Assembly (NCBI GenBank): GCA_963965975.1
Contig: OZ014413.1
Location: forward strand, 10,008,101 to 10,072,100
Length of the DNA: 64,000 bases
Origin: Xestospongia bergquistia
Taxonomy: Eukaryota; Porifera; Demospongiae; Haplosclerida; Petrosiidae
Direction: 5' to 3'
Under the pieces are notes generated by a model. That model ran no database searches. It had not been told where the DNA came from and saw only the letters and a list, made by a program, of their open reading frames with translations. Each line of letters begins with the position of its first letter. The first letter of the stretch is position 1. The position numbers were made by a program, and so were the translations under genes. Positions 16,995 through 54,919 of this stretch are shown piece after piece.

Positions 16995-19712
16995 TACTTT
17001 GTTTTTTAAATTATCATGCATAATTATGTTAGTTGTTATGACAAATAGAGTGGTTGCTATTTTAACACATTATATAATTTGATGACATGTTTAAATTATT
17101 GATGGCCATCATTAATTTTTTTTAAATTTAAGTTGACTGAAATCTTTTTTTCTTTTACATATAATCTTCTATTGGTGGGACTATAGTATACCACACTCAT
17201 AAACAACTAATAATGTCTAGTCAGTTTATATCTCATTACATCTAACAAAATGTATTGTTGTTCCATTTTGTGTAAAACTATAAAAGATATAAAAAATTAA
17301 TGTGTGACAATGTTAGATTGAGAAAATCAATAACATTAAAATAACTGACTTTCATTGATTATACTAGCTTATAAGCTGAATTTTAATTGACTGACAATTA
17401 AATTTTAACTGATATTAAATATACAGCTGATACCTCACATAATTAATTATCATAGAATTATTGTAAATAATATGTAAACAAATGGACAAATATATATTAG
17501 TAATGGATACATATTTATTAGTAATAAATACATATTTATTAGTAAGGAATACTCGTACAGATTAATGGAAACTGTTCTTAGTTTCAAAATGACTTGTAAT
17601 GAAAAAATTTTTAAAAAATGAGAAAAGATGTAACAATAGCTATGCAAAAAATAAAATAAACAATATATTAGTCTGTAAAAAATCATTGTATTAGTAGACA
17701 AACCTTTAAAATTAAGGAAGGAATTTTGGCTACAACTTCAAAATTGAATAATTTCAGTTCATGTATTCTGGATTGCACCATCTATGAGAAACCAGAAACC
17801 CTTACGTCAGTGTTGTCTTGAACTTTAGATCACCTTGTATAGTCAGACATATATTAGTTAGAAGAATATTTTGATTATATATTAAATCATAGATCTCCTT
17901 GAATAGTCAGACATATACTCTAATGTTGAATGTACATAATGCTGAGAAATATGTTGATATTCATCTGCTTTTCAGATGAGAATGGTAGGCAATAAGTTAT
18001 GTGAAAAACCTATTACATACCCATATCTGTTATACTTTTTTTATTCTTACTTCCAGCGTAATATTAGTTATAAAAATATTTTGATTATATATATATATAT
18101 ATATATATTAAATCATAGCAGATGACAAACAAACATTTATAGCCCTAACCTTCCAGCTCTTACTTAATGTCCTTCCATGTCATGTTCTTTGCCATGTTGG
18201 CTATTAGATTGAATTTGTGCATGAGTCTCAATTTTAGCAAAATATAATGTATTTGACATGAAAAGTATTTCTATGTCACATGACTTCAAATATAGCTGTA
18301 TATAGTCATAGCAGCTGACAAACAAGCATCTATAGCCTTAACCTTTAAGCTCTTCCTTAATGCACTAACTTGTCATCTTCTTTTCCATGTCAAATATCAG
18401 ATTGAACTTGTGCAGGAGTCTGAATTTTATCTAAAAATATATAATGTATTTGACATGAAACAACATTGTCTATGTAACATGACCTTGAATAAAGGACATG
18501 TATTCACAGTGTGAAAATCTATCATATTCCTTGTATGTATCATAGATCTGCATTGACTCACAATAAATTTGAGTTGACTTGTAAATATACAATGTTGTAT
18601 GTTAATAACATTTGTTAATAATTATGAGTTATATGATGATCACATGCAGCCTTCTATTATGACAGGAAATTTGATATACTGTGATTACTTTTAACATCTC
18701 ATCAATTTTAACTGCCACATCTATAGATTAGTGAGGTGCTACTAATGACAAGTCATGTAGATGATTGTCAGAGCTTTGAGATTTTTGATTAGATAGATAA
18801 TATCTACTTACTATGTACACAACACATAATCTATTTCTATTTGCACTTCAATTATAAAAAGGTGTGATGTTAACTACTATATAATGTATTATGTATACTA
18901 AAAATGACCATGGATTAATTAAATCAACCTATTATTTGTGATATATTAATACAACATCCTTTAGTAAATTGTATAAAAATTATGTCACACTCTGTGACAT
19001 GAACTTTGACATTGTATTTGAAAATATTGAGAATCTTGTCATTTTAAAGTTGTTGTGAGGAGAAGAAAAAGTGTCATGCCATTTCATACCTACCATTCAG
19101 CAACAAACTTAATGATATAATGTTAACTGTTAAACACAACCTATAGTTGTAGACTACCAATGTCACTACATATCTTGTTTAAAGTCTCAAATATATGTAA
19201 ATACATACAGCAACAGTTTGACAGAAGTGGTTTGTTATTGCAAAAGAAGTTATATATTATGCATTATTAAATAAATTATATACAAAAATTGTAAAAATTG
19301 ATTGATTCCAAATTGATTTAATTAATACAGAGTATACAGGTTAGATAATTATGAAACAATATAAACATAATACTATTAATTACTAATGTATTATGAAATT
19401 GAATGTTTAGTAGCTACACAAACAGTAGTACATTAGTAAGAACAACAGTTTAGGTTATTTTTCAACAAAAATAAGTTTGCAATTGCAACCTGTACATACA
19501 ACTAGTAATAATTATACAGTTGTATATAATATCTTAGTCAGTATAGTGAATTATCCTCTCATTTATATAGCAGTCAGTTGTTCATTTATTTTATGTGTAA
19601 TCTGTTAAATTCATATCAGATTATTGTTAAATTGGGAATTATAAGAGTTGATTAATATATAGCATTATATATTTTTTAGATTTCTGTATTATCAAGTATA
19701 ACATTTAAAAAA
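16995..19712. other. long spacer: 3' flank, then upstream region
   Basis: No gene supported. About 17,000-17,750 is 3' flank. 17,750-17,860 holds a short minus-strand scrap resembling the decarboxylase remnant at 3,640. 17,870-18,620 is the recurrent spacer block with a (TA)n run near 18,089-18,109. 18,640-19,712 is the upstream region of the next transporter, with GATGATCACATGCAG (~18,635), TATAAAAAGGTGTGATG (~18,855) and CTGTTAAACACAACC (~19,126). Confidence 0.55.
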
Positions 19713-22673: not shown

Positions 22674-22805
22674 TAATTACAAATAATATATATTATATAT
22701 ATATACATAATATATATATTATGATAATATAGCTATATATAATACCTCAATAGATAAAGTGAATTATCATACGGTTTCTGTAGTTTCAAGTATAACATTT
22801 GAGAA

Positions 22806-44225: not shown

Positions 44226-45772
44226 ATGGCAAGTCAACAATCAAGAATCTCTATTCAGTGCTGTTGTTTGTCTTCACGATCAGCTATCTTGGTACTTGTC
44301 TGGGATGCTCTAATGTACAACTACATCATGTATATGAGATACTTTGCAGCTACCAAATACAGCAATGCTCAGCAAGGTCATACACCAAGTAGTACCACTA
44401 ACATTGTTTTTGATATTGGATATTGTATGCTTTTATTTTTGTTCTCATTGTTTGGATTGATAGCTGATGTGTGGACAGGACGTTATAAGATCATTATTAC
44501 TGGCATCTATTTGTGTTTTTTTGCTTGGACACTTTCTGGTGTTGGGTTTATTATAATTACATATTGGTCAAATACTCCTTTTTTTTTGTAATATATGCAG
44601 TTGGATTTCTGTGCACTACTGTTGGATATACTAGTTTTCGTGCTAACATTGTACAGTTCAATGTTGATCAACTTGTAGGAGCTTCAGCAGATGAACTAAG
44701 TGCTATCATATACTGGCATAGTTTTGCTATACCAGCAGCTTTCACCATTTTTCAACTAGGTCGATGTTCTTGTTCTTTCCATTTTTTTCTTCTATTATCA
44801 TTTATAGTAATGGGAGTAACAGTGTCTGTGGTATTAATAACTCATTCCTTTTGCAAACACTGGCTGGAAACTACTCCTCTCATTATCAATCCTATCAAGT
44901 TGATTACTAAAGTACTCAACTATGCCAGGAAGAACAAGTACCCAAGGAATCGTAGTGCCTTGACCTATTGGGAGGAGGACTACCCTTCACGACTAGACCT
45001 AGGGAAGGAGAAATATGGAGGAACGTTTACAGAAGAGGAAGTAGAAAATGTGAAGACAGTGTTAAATATGATTCCTCTGATGATCTGTATTGTTGGACTC
45101 AGCTGTGCTGATGAAATATATTGGAGTATAATGAAGGGTCCTAATCCTATTAACTCATCTTTTAAATCTTGCTTTATTTTAAATAACACAATGAAGTCTG
45201 TAACTCCAGCTTTCTTACTTCTCCTCCATCAGTTCTTCATTTATCCCTGTTTCAATAAATACATTCCCAGTATGTTGAAGAGAATAGGTGTGGGACTAGT
45301 GTTTGCTTTGGCAACCACAGTGTCCTATGTGGTTATATTCAAGTACCAGAAGAATACCTTGTCATATTTCAATGATCTATTACTAATTCCTCAGGTATTG
45401 TATGGTGTTGCTTTTGCATTGATTGTTCCAACATCTTTGGAGTTTACGATAGCACAGTCTCCCATACAAATGAGAGGGATGATGGTTGGGATGTGGTTAG
45501 CCTCTTTTGGAGTTGGATATTTCATTAATATCAATACAAAATATCCTTTTGGCTGTGATAACAATTCTATCTGTCCAAGTTTCTATTACTACATTACTAG
45601 GAGTGTTGTTATCTTTATTATACTGTTAATATTCATAGTACTAGCTAAACGGTACAAGTTACGTGTGAGAGAGAATGAAGTCAATATAGTTCAAATTGTT
45701 GATGAACATTATGAAAGATATCTAAACCAGAAAGAAGAATATGAAAGACTAATAGTACCTTCTACTAACTGA
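44226..45772 (+). pseudogene. POT/SLC15-like transporter with one frameshift
   Basis: Nearly the same protein as 39,149-40,690. The single disabling change is one missing base next to a run of nine T near 44,578 (ACTCC-T9 against ACTCCA-T9) in the TM3-TM4 loop. It splits the gene into a 121-codon ORF and a 419-codon ORF. There is also an in-frame 6-nt insertion giving CSCSF. DALMYN and all later landmarks are intact, so it is either very recently dead or a base-call error at the homopolymer. Confidence 0.75.
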
Positions 45773-45963: not shown

Positions 45964-46155
45964 TAGAACAGAATTAAAGGACAAAAGAACAGAGGTCTCG
46001 CTGTGTTGCTGTTACTCCGAGTTTCACGCGTTATGCGATCGTCAGACAGCTCCATCAATCGGACTGATGGTCAGCTGTCTGACGATCGCATGACGCGTGA
46101 AACTCGGAGTAACAGCAACACAGCGAGAGCTCTGTTCTTTTGTCCTTTAATTCTG

Positions 46156-46204: not shown

Positions 46205-46207
<3 letters not shown>

Positions 46208-46604
46208 TAAATTACACAAGATCGGGCGGATCACTTTCGGCCGCCTCCCACAGGACAAACGTGCGAAAGAACGAACTTCTTTACCCTGCTACCATAAAGT
46301 ATAATCCTTTACTTGTTTATTCTGATACCTTTGATAATTTCTTATCTTTACTGTGCGGAGCAACAAAGTTTATAAAAAATATTTCGGGCACATGCGTAGG
46401 CGGACAACAATAATGTCAATTCGTACGAGTGGCAAAACTCTTCTCACGATCAAGCAAACTGAGAAAGCTATGGCTGGCAGGATTGATTGATGACTGAACT
46501 ACAACACGATAGCCAAACCATTTCTTTCAGCAAGGAGTTCACGTCTCCAAAGAGCAAAAGATTTGAATGGGTGTGGACATGAGTATTCGGACACACCTTC
46601 ATCA
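46205..46604. repeat. left terminal inverted repeat (400 bp)
   Basis: Pairs with 51,088-51,487. It ends inward at GGACACACCTTCATCA. The only mismatch noted is ATTTGAATGG (left) against ATCTGAATGG (complement of the right repeat). Confidence 0.93.
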
Positions 46605-46609
46605 GTGTA

Positions 46610-46840
46610 GCGTGCTCTCAACGTGGCTCAACGTGTTTGCACTTTGCTCTCAAATTGGCTATTGCTCTCATTATTGCTCTCATTCTCACCTTTAACTTTG
46701 CTCTCAACGTCATTGTGGTCTTTACTCTCAACGTAGTTCACTCTCATTGTGGCATTTGCTCTCAACGTGGTTGTTGCTCTCATTGTGGCCTTTGCTAGCC
46801 TTTGCTGTCAACGTGGTCTCTTAACGTGGTCACTCTCTAA
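46610..46840 (+). repeat. subterminal CTCTCAACGTGG-type repeats
   Basis: Short motif GCTCTCAACGTGG and variants (GCTCTCATTGTGG, GCTCTCAACGTCA) recur roughly ten times between the left inverted repeat and the transposase start. There is no matching cluster on the right side. Possible transposase-binding or promoter sites; the function is inferred. Confidence 0.6.
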
Positions 46841-46844
46841 AGCT

Positions 46845-49800
46845 ATGGCTGAAGGTTATACATTAACAGGTATGTTTAACTTACTAGTGTTTATGTTACT
46901 ATTAATTATTATCTAGATACTAGTAGCATTCATAGTCTCACTCATGCTAAAGTTACTTCTTCATCAACAAGTATGTTAACTTGTCAATGTTTGTGTTATT
47001 ATAATTATTTTATCTAGTCGTAAAGGACAAAACACTTCCCTTATGTGAACGTATATTTTGCTCAACATCTATTATTCCATCATCTTCTACTCGGCCTACA
47101 AAATATAAGACTTGGACATTAAGCGATTTAGAATTTGCATGCAGTGCTGTTAAAGATGGCATATCTATTAGACAAGCAGCAGAGGAGTACCAAATACCCA
47201 AATCTACGCTACAAGATCACGTGTCCGGAAAGGTAATAAGTGGTAGTAAAAGTGGTCAAAGGTATTTGACAGAAAGTGAAGAAGAAGAGTTGGTATCCTT
47301 TATTTTGGAAACAGCAAAGATTGGATTCCCACGAACAAGAAAGGAAGTCTTGTCATTAGTTCAAATTGCAGTTAACCAAAAAGGCAAAAATGTAACAGTG
47401 TCCAGTGGGTGGTGGGAAGGTTTTAAGAAGCGGCATTCCGAAATTTCACTTCGGACCACTGAGCAACTTGCCAATAATCGTGCAGCAGCATGCACTCTTG
47501 ATGTATTAAGTAATTACTTTGATTTACTAGAGCAGACAGTTCTGGATAATGACCTTGTTTCAAAACCTAATCAGATATTTAATTGCGACGAAACGGGAAT
47601 GCCTCTCAATCCAAAGTTTCCAAAGGGCATAGTGGCTAAAGGTATCAAACATCCGAGAGCAGTAACAACGGGAAATAAAACCCAGATGACTGTCCTTGCT
47701 TGTTGTAATGCTGCTGGATATTGTTTGCCACCTTTTGTGCTGTTTGACAGGAAATGTCTTAGACCAGCAATGTGTGATGGTGAGGTCCCTGGGACTATGT
47801 ATGGTCTCTCAGATTCAGGGTGGATAACTAGTCAATTATTTGATTTATGGTTTGTACATCACTTTTTGCCTCATGCTCCTGCTGCTCGTCCTCTACTCCT
47901 ATTACTAGATGGCCACTCATCACATTACAATCCTTCAGTTATCAGTAAAGCTGCTGAGGAGAAAGTGATAATTTTCTGTCTACCACCTCATTCATCACAT
48001 GAAACACAACCACTAGATAAGGGCCCATTTGGTCCATTAAAAACCTCTTGGAAAGAAGTGTGTCGGAAGTTTTTGGCTGACAATCCTGGGAAGGTTGTTA
48101 GCAGGTTCACGTTTTCCAAATTGTTTGGTGAAGCATGGATGCATTCAATGACTTTAAAAAATATTCAGGCTGGTTTCAAGTGTACAGGGATTTACCCCTT
48201 GAAGAGGGATATGATTGTTCCACTGGTGAAAGATACAACCACCAGTACTCTTGCACAGCGCACTGGGTTGAAGTTTATACCACTGTATAGCCCTGTGCGG
48301 CAACAACGCAGATCTGCTGTTCCTGAATTCACACAGGAAGAAGAGTTACGTTTTCAGAGAAGATTTGAAGAAGGTTATGATATAGATTCTGATAATCGTT
48401 ACAATTCATGGAAAGAAATGCACCAGTCATCTGATGATGTTAATCCAGAGGCCAATCTAGGTTCTCCTTTGTCACATGATATCACACTTGTTAACAGTGA
48501 TATGGCTACACATTCATTGGTTCCTGCATTTAATCCTTACATGTATCCATCCTGTACTCCCGATACATTTCAAGTAGTGGTACCTGTATTCAATTGTCAG
48601 TCTCAAAAGAGTATTTGCAATGACTATACTATGCTTCCATTTCTCTATGTTCCTCCAAAACAATTTGAACACCCTGCCAATCTCCAACGATCGTCTACTC
48701 TTTCAAAAGTCATAAATGAAGAAAGACCTGTACCCTTTTGTAAGCTTCCAGTTATACCACCAAAACATAGTGGAAAAGTTTTGACTAGTGAAGAGAATCT
48801 CAGAGCTATAGAAGAAAAGGAAAGGAAGAAGCAGGAAGAACTGAGAAAAAGGGATGAACGAAAGGAGAAGAGAAGTAAGATTGTTGATATCCCAATACAT
48901 GTAATCGCATTTATATCTCATTAGATCAAGCCAGGATTAAAAAATTGAATAAACGTAAGAAAAAGGACCTTTTGTGTTAGTATTATTAATAATAGGAAGT
49001 GCACCCCTTGAAAAGTCTTCAACATGTAGAAGAGGTTCTCAATTGCATTCTAGCTTTGATGATGGTAAGCATTGTGAGTGTCAAGTAACACCATAAAACA
49101 TGCACTGGTACATGTAGCTTGCTTCTTCCTATCTTTGGAGATAATCAATTACTGGGAAACATTTCTAATGAAGGTACCGTAAATCAGGAGAATTTCGTCA
49201 TTACGTAATTTTTTGTACTTGTGATGATGTACAAAAATTATTTAAGCAAATATTAATTTATGCGCATGTGCAATATGGTGGAACAATGGAATATACGAAA
49301 ATAAATCAAAGAAAAAATTTAATACGTGAATATTTTTCAACATGAAATATTCCAGATTTACGGTATTATATAAATAATCATGTACTGGAAAGTTGCACTT
49401 GTAGGTTTTTACCACTCTACTTTTTCTGATATATTTACCACTACTCTCACATGTGCTGAAGCTGTTGCCGAACCTTCTTCTTTAACAGGTACAATATATT
49501 AACTTGTCAGTGTTTCTGTCACAAATTGGTATTACTATCTAGGCACTGATAGCACTCGTAGTCTCACACGTCCTAAAGCTACTGCTGAACCTTCATCAAC
49601 AGGTATGTTAACTTGTCAGTGCTTCTGTCACAAATTGGTATTACTATCTAGGCACTTATAGCACTCGTAGTCTCACTCGTGCTAAAGCTACAGCTTCAAC
49701 AACAGGTATGTTAAGTTGTCAGTGTTCCTGTCACAAATTGGTATTACTATCTAGGCACTAATAGCACTCGTAGTCTCACACGTGCTAAAGCTACTGCTGA

Positions 49801-50865
49801 ACCTTCATCAACAGGTATGTTAACTTGTCAGTGTTTCTGTCACAAATTGGTATTACTATCTAGGCACTAATAGCACTCGTAGTCTCACACGTGCTAAAGC
49901 TACTGCTGAACCTTCATCAGCAGGTATGTTAACTTGTCAGTGTTTCTGTCACAAATTGGTATTACTATCTAGGCACTAATAGCACTCGTAGTCTCACACG
50001 TGCTAAATCTACTGCTTCAACAACAGGTATGTTAAGTTGTTAGTGTTCCTGTCACAAATTGGTATTACTATCTAGGCACTGATAGCACTTGTAGTCTCAC
50101 ACGTGCTAAAGCTACTGCTGAACCTTCATCAACAGGTATGTTAACTTGTCAGTGTTTCTGTCACAAATTGGTATTACTATCTAGGCACTAATAGCACTCG
50201 TAGTCTCACTCGTGCTAAAGCTACAGCTTCAACAACAGGTATGTTAAGTTGTCAGTGTTCCTGTCACAAATTGGTATTACTATCTAGGCACTTATAGCAC
50301 TCGTAGTCTCACTCGTGCTAAAGCTACAGCTTCAACAACAGGTATGTTAAGTTGTCAGTGTTCCTGTCACAAATTGGTATTACTATCTAGGCACTAATAG
50401 CACTCGTAGTCTCACTCGTGCTAAAGCTACAGCTTCAACAACAGGTATGTTAAGTTGTCAGTGTTCCTGTCACAAGTTGGTTTTACTATCTAGGCACTAA
50501 TAGAACTTGTAGTCTCACACGTGCTAAAGCTACTGCTGAACCTTCATCAACAGGTATGTTAACTTGTCAGTGTTTTTGTCACAAATTGCTATTACTATCT
50601 AGGCACTTATGGCACTTGTACTCTTAAAGCTACATCTAAGGAAATGAAGAAGAGTGTTAGAGGTGAAATGAATTTTATTGGCCAGTTATCATTAATAGTT
50701 TCTATTCTAGTTAGTAATTGCCTACATAAAACTTGTGCTCATCCAAGGGCAACCACTTGGGTGAATTGTTCGAATTGCCTGCAGTGGTACCATTGCAGTT
50801 GTGTCAATGTATTATACACTGTTGCCAAGAGAAAAGACTTTAATTATGTTTGTGAAAACTGTTAA
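46845..50865 (+). CDS. transposase gene with HTH_psq, CENP-B HTH, DDE_1, micro-exon repeats and PHD finger
   Basis: Proposed exons: 46845-46869, 46917-46970, 47018-48874, 49405-49488, ten micro-exons, and 50603-50865. All junctions are GT/AG and phase 1, giving 2,853 nt (950 residues). Seen directly: psq-type helix-turn-helix at ~55-97 (ISIRQAAEEYQIPKSTLQDH), CENP-B-type HTH at ~109-180, and DDE_1 core with NCDETG (D217), LLLLLDGHSSH (D324) and QPLDKGPFG (D360), i.e. DD35D. A charged coiled-coil-like stretch follows, then Ser/Thr/Ala-rich repeats, then a C4HC3 PHD-like finger (WVNCSNCLQWYH). Without splicing at 48,875 the ORF ends at 48,924 (~661 residues). The core is certain; the 3' exons are inference from splice sites and phase. 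Confidence 0.75.
49175..49365. mobile_element. small nested MITE in the transposon
   Basis: TA-flanked, with ends TACCGTAAATC and GATTTACGGTA. The inverted similarity extends inward ~20 bp (AATTTC/GAAATA), then fades. About 191 bp, non-coding. It lies inside the predicted 530-nt intron between 48,874 and 49,405, where it would be tolerated. Confidence 0.7.
49543..50602 (+). repeat. tandem array of ten micro-exon/intron units
   Basis: Units of 109 or 103 bp, each a 60- or 54-nt open segment followed by a 49-nt intron-like segment (GTATGTTAAC ... TACTATCTAG). Open segments end at 49602, 49705, 49814, 49923, 50026, 50135, 50238, 50341, 50444 and 50553. Each has an AG before and a GTATG after, is a multiple of three and is phase 1 at both ends. 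They read TNSTRSLTRAKATAEPSST or the shorter form ending ATASTT. The array resembles exon 2 of the same gene (46917-46970). Confidence 0.85.
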
Positions 50866-51087
50866 TTTTTGTATTAATGGTTTTTGACTGCAGTCTCAAA
50901 TGACAAGCATTGCATTCAACTTGCATACATCACTGAGATACACCATCTCTAACACCACAGCGCACTGCATGCAAACTCTAAATTATTTGATGTCTAAAGT
51001 TCTACATTTCAAAAGCCATTAGAAGACAGTTGTGTCCATTACGACTATAAACGTACCAGTTGAATAATTATAGAGCTAGACCATCAT
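50866..51087. other. transposon right subterminal region
   Basis: 3' untranslated/subterminal DNA between the PHD exon stop and the right inverted repeat. No further gene seen. Confidence 0.6.
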
Positions 51088-51484
51088 TGATGAAGGTGTG
51101 TCCGAATACTCATGTCCACACCCATTCAGATCTTTTGCTCTTTGGAGACGTGAACTCCTTGCTGAAAGAAATGGTTTGGCTATCGTGTTGTAGTTCAGTC
51201 ATCAATCAATCCTGCCAGCCATAGCTTTCTCAGTTTGCTTGATCGTGAGAAGAGTTTTGCCACTCGTACGAATTGACATTATTGTTGTCCGCCTACGCAT
51301 GTGCCCGAAATATTTTTTATAAACTTTGTTGCTCCGCACAGTAAAGATAAGAAATTATCAAAGGTATCAGAATAAACAAGTAAAGGATTATACTTTATGG
51401 TAGCAGGGTAAAGAAGTTCGTTCTTTCGCACGTTTGTCCTGTGGGAGGCGGCCGAAAGTGATCCGCCCGATCTTGTGTAATTTA

Positions 51485-51487
<3 letters not shown>
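51088..51487. repeat. right terminal inverted repeat (400 bp)
   Basis: Reverse complement of 46,205-46,604; outer end CGATCTTGTGTAATTTACTC followed by (TA)n. Confidence 0.93.
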
Positions 51488-53183: not shown

Positions 53184-53377
53184 TTTACTTGGATAAAAAA
53201 ATAAGCATAACATTGTTTATATTATTAATATACTAATATTTATGTACCTAAATAAACGGTATTATATTAGTAAACTAAACAATGCCACTTTTTTGCATGT
53301 GTAAGTTATATAATCATACAATCATTTAATATCTTCAGTTTCATTAGATATCAAGTATTTGACTAATCAACATTTCA
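53184..53377. other. short AT-rich gap before the intact copy
   Basis: About 190 bp without the conserved upstream blocks. Only a weak match to the proximal element (AGATATCAAGTATTTGAC). Confidence 0.5.
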
Positions 53378-54919
53378 ATGATGACAAGTCATTCAAGGTT
53401 CTCTCACCATTTTTGTCATCTCTCTTCACGATCAGTTGTCTTGGTACTAGTCTGGGATGCTCTAATGTACAACTACATTATGTATATAAGATATTTTGCG
53501 GATTATATCTACAGCAATTTTCACCAACGTCAGACACCAAATAGTGCCAGTAATATTGTTTTTAATAATGGATATTGTATGGTCTTCTTTATGTTCTCAT
53601 TGCTTGGATTGATAGCTGATGTGTGGACAGGACGTTATAAGATCATTGTTACTGGTATCTTTTTGTGCTTTTTTGCTTGGATACTTTTTGGTGTGGGGTT
53701 TATTGTAGCAGCATATTGGCAAAATAATCCATTATTTTTTACAATATATGGACTTGGATATCTTTGTGCTGTAGTTGGATATACTGGGTTTCGAGCAAAC
53801 ATTGTTCAGTTCAATGTTGATCAACTTGTGGGAGCTTCGGCAGATGAACTAAGTGCTATCATATACTGGCATAGTTTTATTATGCCAGTTGAATTCACTA
53901 TATTTGAACTTGGACAATGTTCTTTCTATTTTTTTCTTCTATTATCATTCATAACATCAGGAATAACAGTGTCTGTGGTAGCAATAACTCATTCCTTTTT
54001 CAAGTACTGGCTGGAAACTACTCCTCTCATTATCAATCCTATCAAGTTGATTGCTAAAGTACTCAACTATGCCAGGAAGAACAAGTACCCAAGGAATCGT
54101 AGTGCCTTGACCTACTGGGAGGAGGACTACCCTTCCCGACTAGACCTAGGTAAGGAGAAATATGGTGGACCTTTTACAGAAGAGGAAGTAGAAAATGTGA
54201 AGACAGTGTTACGTATGATTCCTCTGATGATTTGTATTGTTGGACTCAGCTGTGCTGATGAAATATACTGGAATATAATGAAGGGTCCTAATCCTATTAA
54301 CTCATCTTTTAAATCTTGCTTCATTTTAAATAACACAATGAAGTTATTAACTCCAGCTTTCTTACTTCTTATTCATCGGTTCTTCATTTATCCTTGTTTC
54401 AATAAATACATTCCCAGTATGTTGAAGAGAATAGGTCTAGGACTAGTCTTTGCTTTGGCAACTACATTGACCTATGCAGTTATATTCAAGTACCAAAGGA
54501 ATCCCTTGTTATATTTTAATGACCTATTACTAATTCCTCAGATATTATTTGGTGTTTCATTTGCATTGATTTTTCCAGCATCTTTGGAGTTTACAATAGC
54601 ACAGTCTCCTATACAAATGAGAGGGATGATGGTTGGGATGTCATTTGCCTCTTTTGGAGTAGGTTATCTCATAAATATTAATACAAAATATCCTTTTGGG
54701 TGCAATGATAATTCTCTTTGTCCAAGTTTCTATTACAACATTACTAGGAGTGTTGTTATCTTTATTATACTGTTAGTATTCATAGTACTAGCTAAATGGT
54801 ACAAGTTACGTGTGAGAGAGAATGAAATTAATATAGTTCAAATTGTTGATGAACACTATGAAAGATATATGAACCAGAAAGAAGAATATGAAAGACTAAT
54901 GGGACTTTCTACAGATTGA
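53378..54919 (+). CDS. POT/SLC15-like MFS transporter (intact)
   Basis: A 513-residue intronless ORF starting MMTSHSRFSHHFC; the second Met (53,381) matches the usual start better. DALMYNY, GLIADVWTGRYK and QFNVDQLVGASADELS are intact. The outer loop is distinctive (FADYIYSNFHQRQTPNSASN), as are TM5 (HSFIMPVEFTIFELGQC) and TM11 (GMMVGMSFASFGVGY, Ser for Trp). It is not preceded by its own decarboxylase remnant or upstream module, unlike other intact copies, so how it is transcribed is unclear. Confidence 0.86.
   Translation: MMTSHSRFSHHFCHLSSRSVVLVLVWDALMYNYIMYIRYFADYIYSNFHQRQTPNSASNIVFNNGYCMVFFMFSLLGLIADVWTGRYKIIVTGIFLCFFAWILFGVGFIVAAYWQNNPLFFTIYGLGYLCAVVGYTGFRANIVQFNVDQLVGASADELSAIIYWHSFIMPVEFTIFELGQCSFYFFLLLSFITSGITVSVVAITHSFFKYWLETTPLIINPIKLIAKVLNYARKNKYPRNRSALTYWEEDYPSRLDLGKEKYGGPFTEEEVENVKTVLRMIPLMICIVGLSCADEIYWNIMKGPNPINSSFKSCFILNNTMKLLTPAFLLLIHRFFIYPCFNKYIPSMLKRIGLGLVFALATTLTYAVIFKYQRNPLLYFNDLLLIPQILFGVSFALIFPASLEFTIAQSPIQMRGMMVGMSFASFGVGYLININTKYPFGCNDNSLCPSFYYNITRSVVIFIILLVFIVLAKWYKLRVRENEINIVQIVDEHYERYMNQKEEYERLMGLSTD

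Follow-up and report, generated by a model that had tools for sequence, protein, structure and literature searches.

A probable transposase–linker–PHD gene with a phase-1 micro-exon array in a pogo-superfamily transposon of the sponge Xestospongia bergquistia

PHD and PHD-like fingers are already known as parts of transposases, and some insect pogo- and jerky-like proteins end in PHD-like fingers. Several described systems share features with the locus reported below. Rehavkus, a Mutator-like outgroup, has a PHD finger in its transposase, a mini-satellite before its 3′ terminal inverted repeat (TIR) and a 9-bp target duplication (PMC6446971). The piggyBac transposase has a cysteine-rich, PHD-like domain, and ciliate relatives bind histone H3 (PMC8086355), while Ginger1-9_HM is a transposase ending in a C-terminal PHD, with Ulp1 and PHD domains, a Gypsy-integrase-like enzyme and 2 introns (PMC2836005). 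In the RAG1/RAG2 system, a transposase-derived enzyme is governed by a PHD that reads trimethylated lysine 4 of histone H3 (H3K4me3) (PMC11844651, PMC4411706). The pogo superfamily has been surveyed, with elements of 1.20–5.20 kb and proteins of 300–977 aa, and with type 4 TIRs of 392–856 bp reported from insects only (PMC7386202). Here, we describe a pogo-like transposon in a stretch of 64,000 nucleotides from the demosponge Xestospongia bergquistia (assembly GCA_963965975.1, contig OZ014413.1, positions 10,008,101 to 10,072,100 of the forward strand; hereafter the window, whose own numbering is used throughout), the gene of which runs in a single phase from a transposase exon through a tandem array of micro-exons into a PHD-like finger (table 1).

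The element shares with the pogo superfamily the TA target duplication, TIRs, the domains HTH_psq, HTH_Tnp_Tc5 and DDE_1, all three above their Pfam cut-offs in the long open reading frame (ORF), and a DDxD-type catalytic triad, here DD35D (three aspartates, the second and third separated by 35 residues, the motif assigned by eye). Its 403-bp TIRs resemble type 4, whereas its 5,283 bp and its multi-exon gene of 984 codons just exceed the ranges of the survey, in the text of which the words ‘PHD’ and ‘intron’ do not occur (PMC7386202). It differs from Rehavkus in having a TA duplication and pogo domains rather than a 9-bp duplication and a Mutator-like transposase, and from piggyBac and Ginger1-9_HM in its type of enzyme; the available portions of the Rehavkus and piggyBac sources describe no exon array or micro-exon array, respectively (PMC6446971, PMC8086355). 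In RAG1/RAG2, the PHD is on a separate protein and the enzyme is of the Transib type. The PHD fingers of ING and of KDM5/BPTF proteins match those found here in sequence, but here the fingers are joined to transposases. Among the open-licence papers searched, Repbase reports excluded, we recognized no pogo transposase with a PHD and no transposase gene with an array of phase-locked micro-exons.

The genome was searched for relatives over 146 Mb in 21 contigs. At least 15 matches to the window transposase DNA are 98–100% identical (one of them partial) and further matches are 68–76% identical; because 40 of 69 candidates were scored, these copy numbers are lower bounds. Fourteen close copies, the window's own included, were compared as family A, next to the more distant families B (L032, L033, L035, L036 and L037), C (L038) and D (L039–L041). 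A TA lies on both sides of 11 of the 13 family A copies that have both ends located, the exceptions being L017, with an altered left end, and L018, without TA; the 14th copy, L019, was left out of this test. At L022, one copy is nested in the transposase exon of another, at a site that is uninterrupted in the window copy. The element is probably a recently mobile pogo-superfamily DNA transposon with a single spliced gene. A scan of viral contigs turned up no relative.

Table 1. Features of the transposon and of its refined gene model in the window.
Feature	Position	Strand	Remarks
Whole element	46205..51487	+	5,283 bp; TA at both sides; from ends and flanks
Left TIR	46205..46607	+	403 bp; 2 mismatches against the right TIR over the first 403 bases
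Right TIR	51085..51487	-	Pairs with left TIR
Exon 1	46845..46869	+	25 nt, begins with ATG; 100% identical in 13 of 14 copies (window included), not found in L019
Exon 2	46917..46970	+	54 nt; AG/GT borders; followed by a 47-nt intron
Transposase exon	47018..48874	+	1857 nt, phase 1 at either border; carries HTH_psq, HTH_Tnp_Tc5, DDE_1, DD35D
Short intron	48875..48924	+	50 nt; the TAG formerly read as a stop is its acceptor
Exon M1	48925..48954	+	30 nt, NQARIKKLNK; aligned with family B peptides
Exon M2	48996..49064	+	69 nt; aligned with a family B stretch sharing the donor; 81-nt B exon read by eye
Possible exon M3, uncertain	49141..49173	+	33 nt; AG/GT borders, phase 1; a family B intron aligns there
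Exon 4	49405..49488	+	84 nt
Array of ten 54/60-nt exons	49543..50553	+	49-nt introns between
Last exon	50603..50865	+	PHD-like finger, ends with TAA

The gene model revises a first-pass annotation of the same DNA. The transposase ORF had been described as lacking a proper start, and the window copy has indeed no ATG ahead of the helix-turn-helix (HTH) within the long frame, which is why an upstream exon is needed in family A; the frame, however, is open from 47005, not from 47221, and continues to 48924. Two mini-exons had been proposed upstream, adding an ATG and a psq-type HTH: they do contribute an ATG and 26 residues, but HTH_psq occupies residues 45–76 of the long frame, about 47137–47232, and so lies within the transposase frame itself. 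Exon 2, like exon 1, is 100% conserved in 13 of the 14 copies, and it is 82–85% alike to the array units of the window over matched stretches of 39–51 nt. All exons named in that annotation are present with AG/GT borders, the first starting with ATG, the last ending with TAA and all joined in phase 1. Their chain of 951 codons translates to 950 residues and a stop, and the proposed in-frame path from the transposase exon into the micro-exons and a chromatin-reader-like terminal finger holds, with phase-1 exons all the way through the PHD.

The direct step from 48874 to 49405 was right about its donor at 48875, but overlooked an acceptor at 48924, exons M1 and M2 and perhaps a third, M3. The homology between the DNA of the window and that of L032 stops at 48879, within the donor GTAAG; donor and acceptor of this intron can be aligned in all five family B loci (L033 having GTAAA for GTAAG), as can the acceptor at 48922–48924 together with the exon behind it. 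The apparent stop at 48924 therefore reads as the acceptor of a 50-nt intron. The counterpart of M1 in family B is NQARIAQLKK in L033, L036 and L037 and NQPRIAQLKK in L032, its 3′ border there being set by eye, and M3 is kept as uncertain because the alignment pairs it with a family B intron. The refined chain, M1 and M2 included, comes to 984 codons, or 995 if M3 is added, and its introns measure 41–54 nt, save for those of 76 and 231 nt flanking M3 (or a single one of 340 nt without it).

A tandem repeat of 103/109 bp is confirmed at 49495–50624. Among the family A copies, the number of array units ranges from 6 (L018) and 9 (L011) through 10 (six copies) and 11 (five copies) to 12 (L012). 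The whole chain with M1 and M2 is free of lesions in 10 of the 14 copies, which hold 9–12 units each; the transposase exon is broken in L018, L020 and L021, and L019 is without exons 1 and 2, is frameshifted in exon 3 and shows a gap of 9 nt within its final exon. Each of the 142 units, delimited by its splice borders, has a length of 54 or 60 nt, and all 141 introns measured within the arrays are 49 nt. Stops in the sibling repeat frames had been named as a finding that would speak against the model, and none of the 142 units has one in phase 1. Because the family A copies are young, intact chains and unit lengths alone tell little about selection. The thirteen junctions said at first pass to agree in phase are an overcount, the ten array exons being copies of one another.

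Independent support comes from families B and D, in which the same phase rule is kept with other repeats. Family B has an array of about 115 bp at the corresponding place, with a unit that differs from that of A, and family D has a 126-bp array with a third kind of unit. The unit exons of B come in lengths of 54, 66, 75 and 84 nt, those of D in lengths of 63, 72 and 99 nt, and all 194 units counted in the three families are multiples of three, although their introns vary (45, 46, 48, 49 or 56 nt among 36 measured in B; 54 nt in D). In the B counts, the L035 unit was taken at its full 84 nt, the whole unit of a fused 105-nt row in L037 was kept and the partial one dropped, one 46-nt intron belongs to that fused row, and the decayed units of L034 were left uncounted. 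The units with a stop in phases 0, 1 and 2 number 1, 0 and 142 of 142 in A, 41, 3 and 31 of 41 in B, and 11, 0 and 11 of 11 in D. Only phase 1 is open across the three families, with stops in 3 of the 41 B units, and it is also the phase that the transposase exon delivers in A and, by alignment, in B. Family C is a decayed relic, with an ING-like finger that contains stops, and the tandem-repeat program returned no array for it. L034 is another relic, in which three unit matches persist in decayed form; none of the best 40 of 87 B-finger matches lies within 12 kb of it on its strand. At about 4160–5365 of L034, an open stretch resembling an alpha-1,3-fucosyltransferase (named by eye) adjoins the transposon relic.

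Two kinds of finger stand at the end of these genes. ING, BPTF and KDM5 PHDs are readers of histone H3, and aromatic residues at cage-like places are associated with the reading of H3K4me3. The family B finger matches ING-family PHDs with an expect value (E) of about 1e-16, whereas the window finger alone matches BPTF and KDM5B with E of 1e-4 and 3e-4, and a profile built from the fingers of the window copy, L039, L040 and L042 matches the PHDs of BPTF, KDM5B and KDM5A with E of 1e-6 to 1.4e-5. By sequence comparison, families A and D end in a BPTF/KDM5-like PHD, whereas the PHD of family B is of the ING type. In four aligned finger sequences, the ligand places of a C4HC3 finger, as assigned by eye, are invariant (seven Cys and one His). 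A B-type finger, sought with the best 40 of 87 finger matches, lies 3′ of 20 of 24 diverged transposase loci on the same strand, at 1.0–2.8 kb, with one at 6.1 kb; the 24 loci are transposase matches after merging of split pieces and dropping of near-identical copies. The ratio of nonsynonymous to synonymous substitution rates (dN/dS) of the finger is 0.48 between A and D, 0.23 between A and L042 and 0.28 between D and L042, the L042 values being near saturation.

The fingers and the transposases do not sort alike. Apart from the members of B among themselves, A and B have the closest transposases, 79–80% identical (L032 and L033; residues 61–440) compared with 55% for D (L039), and the transposase dN/dS of the window copy against L032 and L033 is 0.08–0.30, aligned up to the donor or at most 6 residues short of it. 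The fingers of A and B, on the other hand, share 12 of 44 residues, and those of A and D 24 of 50. An exchange of the finger since the split of A and B is therefore the simplest reading. The tree, which compares the families of this genome alone, would place two such changes, the support of the deciding node being 0.507; a grouping of A with D and of B with C would require just one.

Taken together, these observations make it probable that the element encodes a spliced transposase–linker–PHD protein, with a linker that changes length in frame and a terminal PHD finger that has been exchanged. One spliced mRNA would yield a short N-terminal leader, a DNA-binding and DDE transposase part, a Thr/Ser-rich and presumably flexible linker, for which the interchangeable phase-1 micro-exons of the array would code, and the PHD at the C terminus. 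Since the inner exons start and end in phase 1, units may be gained, lost or skipped, and the PHD exon swapped, without a change of frame; unequal exchange or slippage would lengthen or shorten the linker in this way, which fits the varied unit counts among copies. The most likely ligand of the PHD is the H3 tail, and the finger would hold or license the transposase at a chromatin state such as H3K4me3, tethering the enzyme to a histone mark or controlling it as the RAG2 PHD does, or it might instead bind transposon ends as in piggyBac. We put forward only tentatively the wider proposal that a pogo clade has evolved a modular transposase, assembled by splicing and guided by chromatin. In it, a phase-locked micro-exon array would act as a tether of adjustable length and rapid turnover that leads to a histone-reading PHD, the exon of which was swapped for an unlike reader one or more times (the tree obtained implies two), as an independent counterpart of chromatin control in the style of RAG2. 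If transcripts bear out the gene model, a mobile element would be seen to vary its transposase and swap pieces of it by means of symmetric exons, and a likely reader of histone marks would be part of a cut-and-paste enzyme that does not belong to the RAG lineage. Insertion maps could then test directly whether the PHD steers DNA transposition, and the ten near-identical copies that look intact make the element a tractable system.

Several results weigh against this interpretation. The exon parts of the family A arrays are about as diverse as their introns (0.028–0.034 and 0.039, respectively) and have no excess at third positions, so that the repeat sequence of A shows no amino-acid constraint, and phase 0 is also open in A save for 1 of the 142 units. 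The homology between A and B units is weak, 2 of 1000 shuffles reaching its score, and the phase at the end of the family D transposase exon could not be read because L039 is decayed. Between the counterparts of M1 and M2 in family B, an inner intron is not proven: read through, the stretch measures 156 nt in L033, where it is open, and in L036, where it has one stop; in L032 and L037 it is 154 nt long and interrupted by stops. The Pfam search proposed at first pass recovers the three transposase domains, but the window finger scores 22.6 bits against PF00628, under the gathering cut-off of 24, and the B finger 21.1 bits, whereas the homologues in family D (28.7 bits) and L042 (26.7 bits) pass. 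The single-sequence structure prediction of the window PHD had a mean confidence (pLDDT) of 43.5 and was not used. Among the 40 B-finger matches used, 20 have no upstream transposase from the transposase search, and the finger in four B copies has 5–14 nonsynonymous against 1–4 synonymous changes, with no clear purifying selection.

The near-equal diversity of exon and intron parts in A speaks for another explanation, in which the protein stops at 48924, or shortly after in M1, and the array is a non-coding minisatellite before the 3′ TIR, of the sort known from Rehavkus (PMC6446971). That three families with different repeats keep lengths divisible by three, an open phase 1 and a PHD exon in phase weakens this account, and the residues encoded by 48875–48924 differ between A and L032 while the next exon is alike (by eye), which speaks against an early stop; we consider it improbable. 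A purely DNA-level role for the array, for instance as a subterminal cluster of transposase-binding sites in which the open frame is incidental, would suit its position near the 3′ TIR and its variable copy number. The families nonetheless differ in repeat sequence but agree in splice borders and phase, and exon 2 is the sole unit-like stretch seen 5′ of the window transposase exon, making this the least credible of the accounts. Nor is it at all likely that the array and the PHD are passive cargo of host-gene origin. The finger of B does resemble ING, and the best ING-like matches that are not near-copies and have no listed transposase nearby are 47–52% identical with open frames of 239–321 aa (C15:89496, C8:304790 and C1:21250448), but several families, with two kinds of finger between them, have retained the tail, the dN/dS among the A, D and L042 fingers is that given above (0.23–0.48), and the array peptide of A matched only family A copies among 138 matches listed.

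Two alternatives concern the use of the tail more than its existence. Alternative splicing may generate a transposase alone, a transposase with the tail and, by skipping of the 1857-nt exon, a repeat–PHD product that lacks the transposase and might serve as a repressor. Both sides of that exon are in phase 1, a skip leaves 332 open codons with the first-pass exons or 365 with M1 and M2, and unit-like exons flank the transposase exon on both sides in A and in the B loci L032 and L033. As judged by eye, however, the unit-like stretches 5′ of the B transposase exon have stops in places and this exon has its own in-frame ATG, and the short intron at 48875 with its good donor argues for routine removal; such isoforms are conceivable but doubtful. 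Optional retention of that intron, raised at first pass, is unlikely as the main switch: no positive evidence favours it, its 50 nt are like most other introns of the element, and this size and the aligned acceptor and next exon suggest an ordinary intron. The finger might also bind transposon-end DNA and help the transposase to hold the TIRs, with no reading of histones. The PHD-like finger of piggyBac, a cross-brace that is essential for transposition, binds a repeated motif of the transposon end and not histones (PMC8086355), a precedent that counts against a histone-reading role here. The element also has long TIRs. Nevertheless, the resemblance of the B finger to ING PHDs and of the A and D fingers to BPTF/KDM5 PHDs, which are H3 readers, and the presence of two unlike fingers in one place make end-binding rather unlikely, if less so than a non-coding array.

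PHD sequences also occur elsewhere in this genome. On seven contigs (C5, C6, C7, C13, C15, C4 and C10), copies of a type-I PHD frame, usually of 71 aa, form clusters; those of one cluster share a strand and are mostly 110–225 kb apart (two gaps are 16 and 65 kb), which suggests giant tandem units. L042 is a dispersed copy of this clustered frame that passes the Pfam PHD model, with no transposase-like long frame in the preceding 3 kb. Three B-type PHD matches at C2:16000701, 16040714 and 16080364, about 40 kb apart, appear to mark a large tandem duplication near the contig end.

Closer to the element, short GCTCTCAACGTGG-type repeats at 46710–46796 lie directly 5′ of exon 1 and may serve the element as a promoter or as subterminal binding repeats, and a long palindrome at 46001–46122, with arms of about 55–60 bp by eye, stands beside the (TA)n insertion site and looks like a hairpin-type miniature inverted-repeat transposable element. 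Elsewhere in the window, minisatellites recur at 17481, 24403 and 31347 and at 22686, 29608 and 43977, several of them about 6.9 kb apart, and, together with the repeated transporter-like frames at 44489–45772 and 53363–54919, they suggest a tandem gene cluster.

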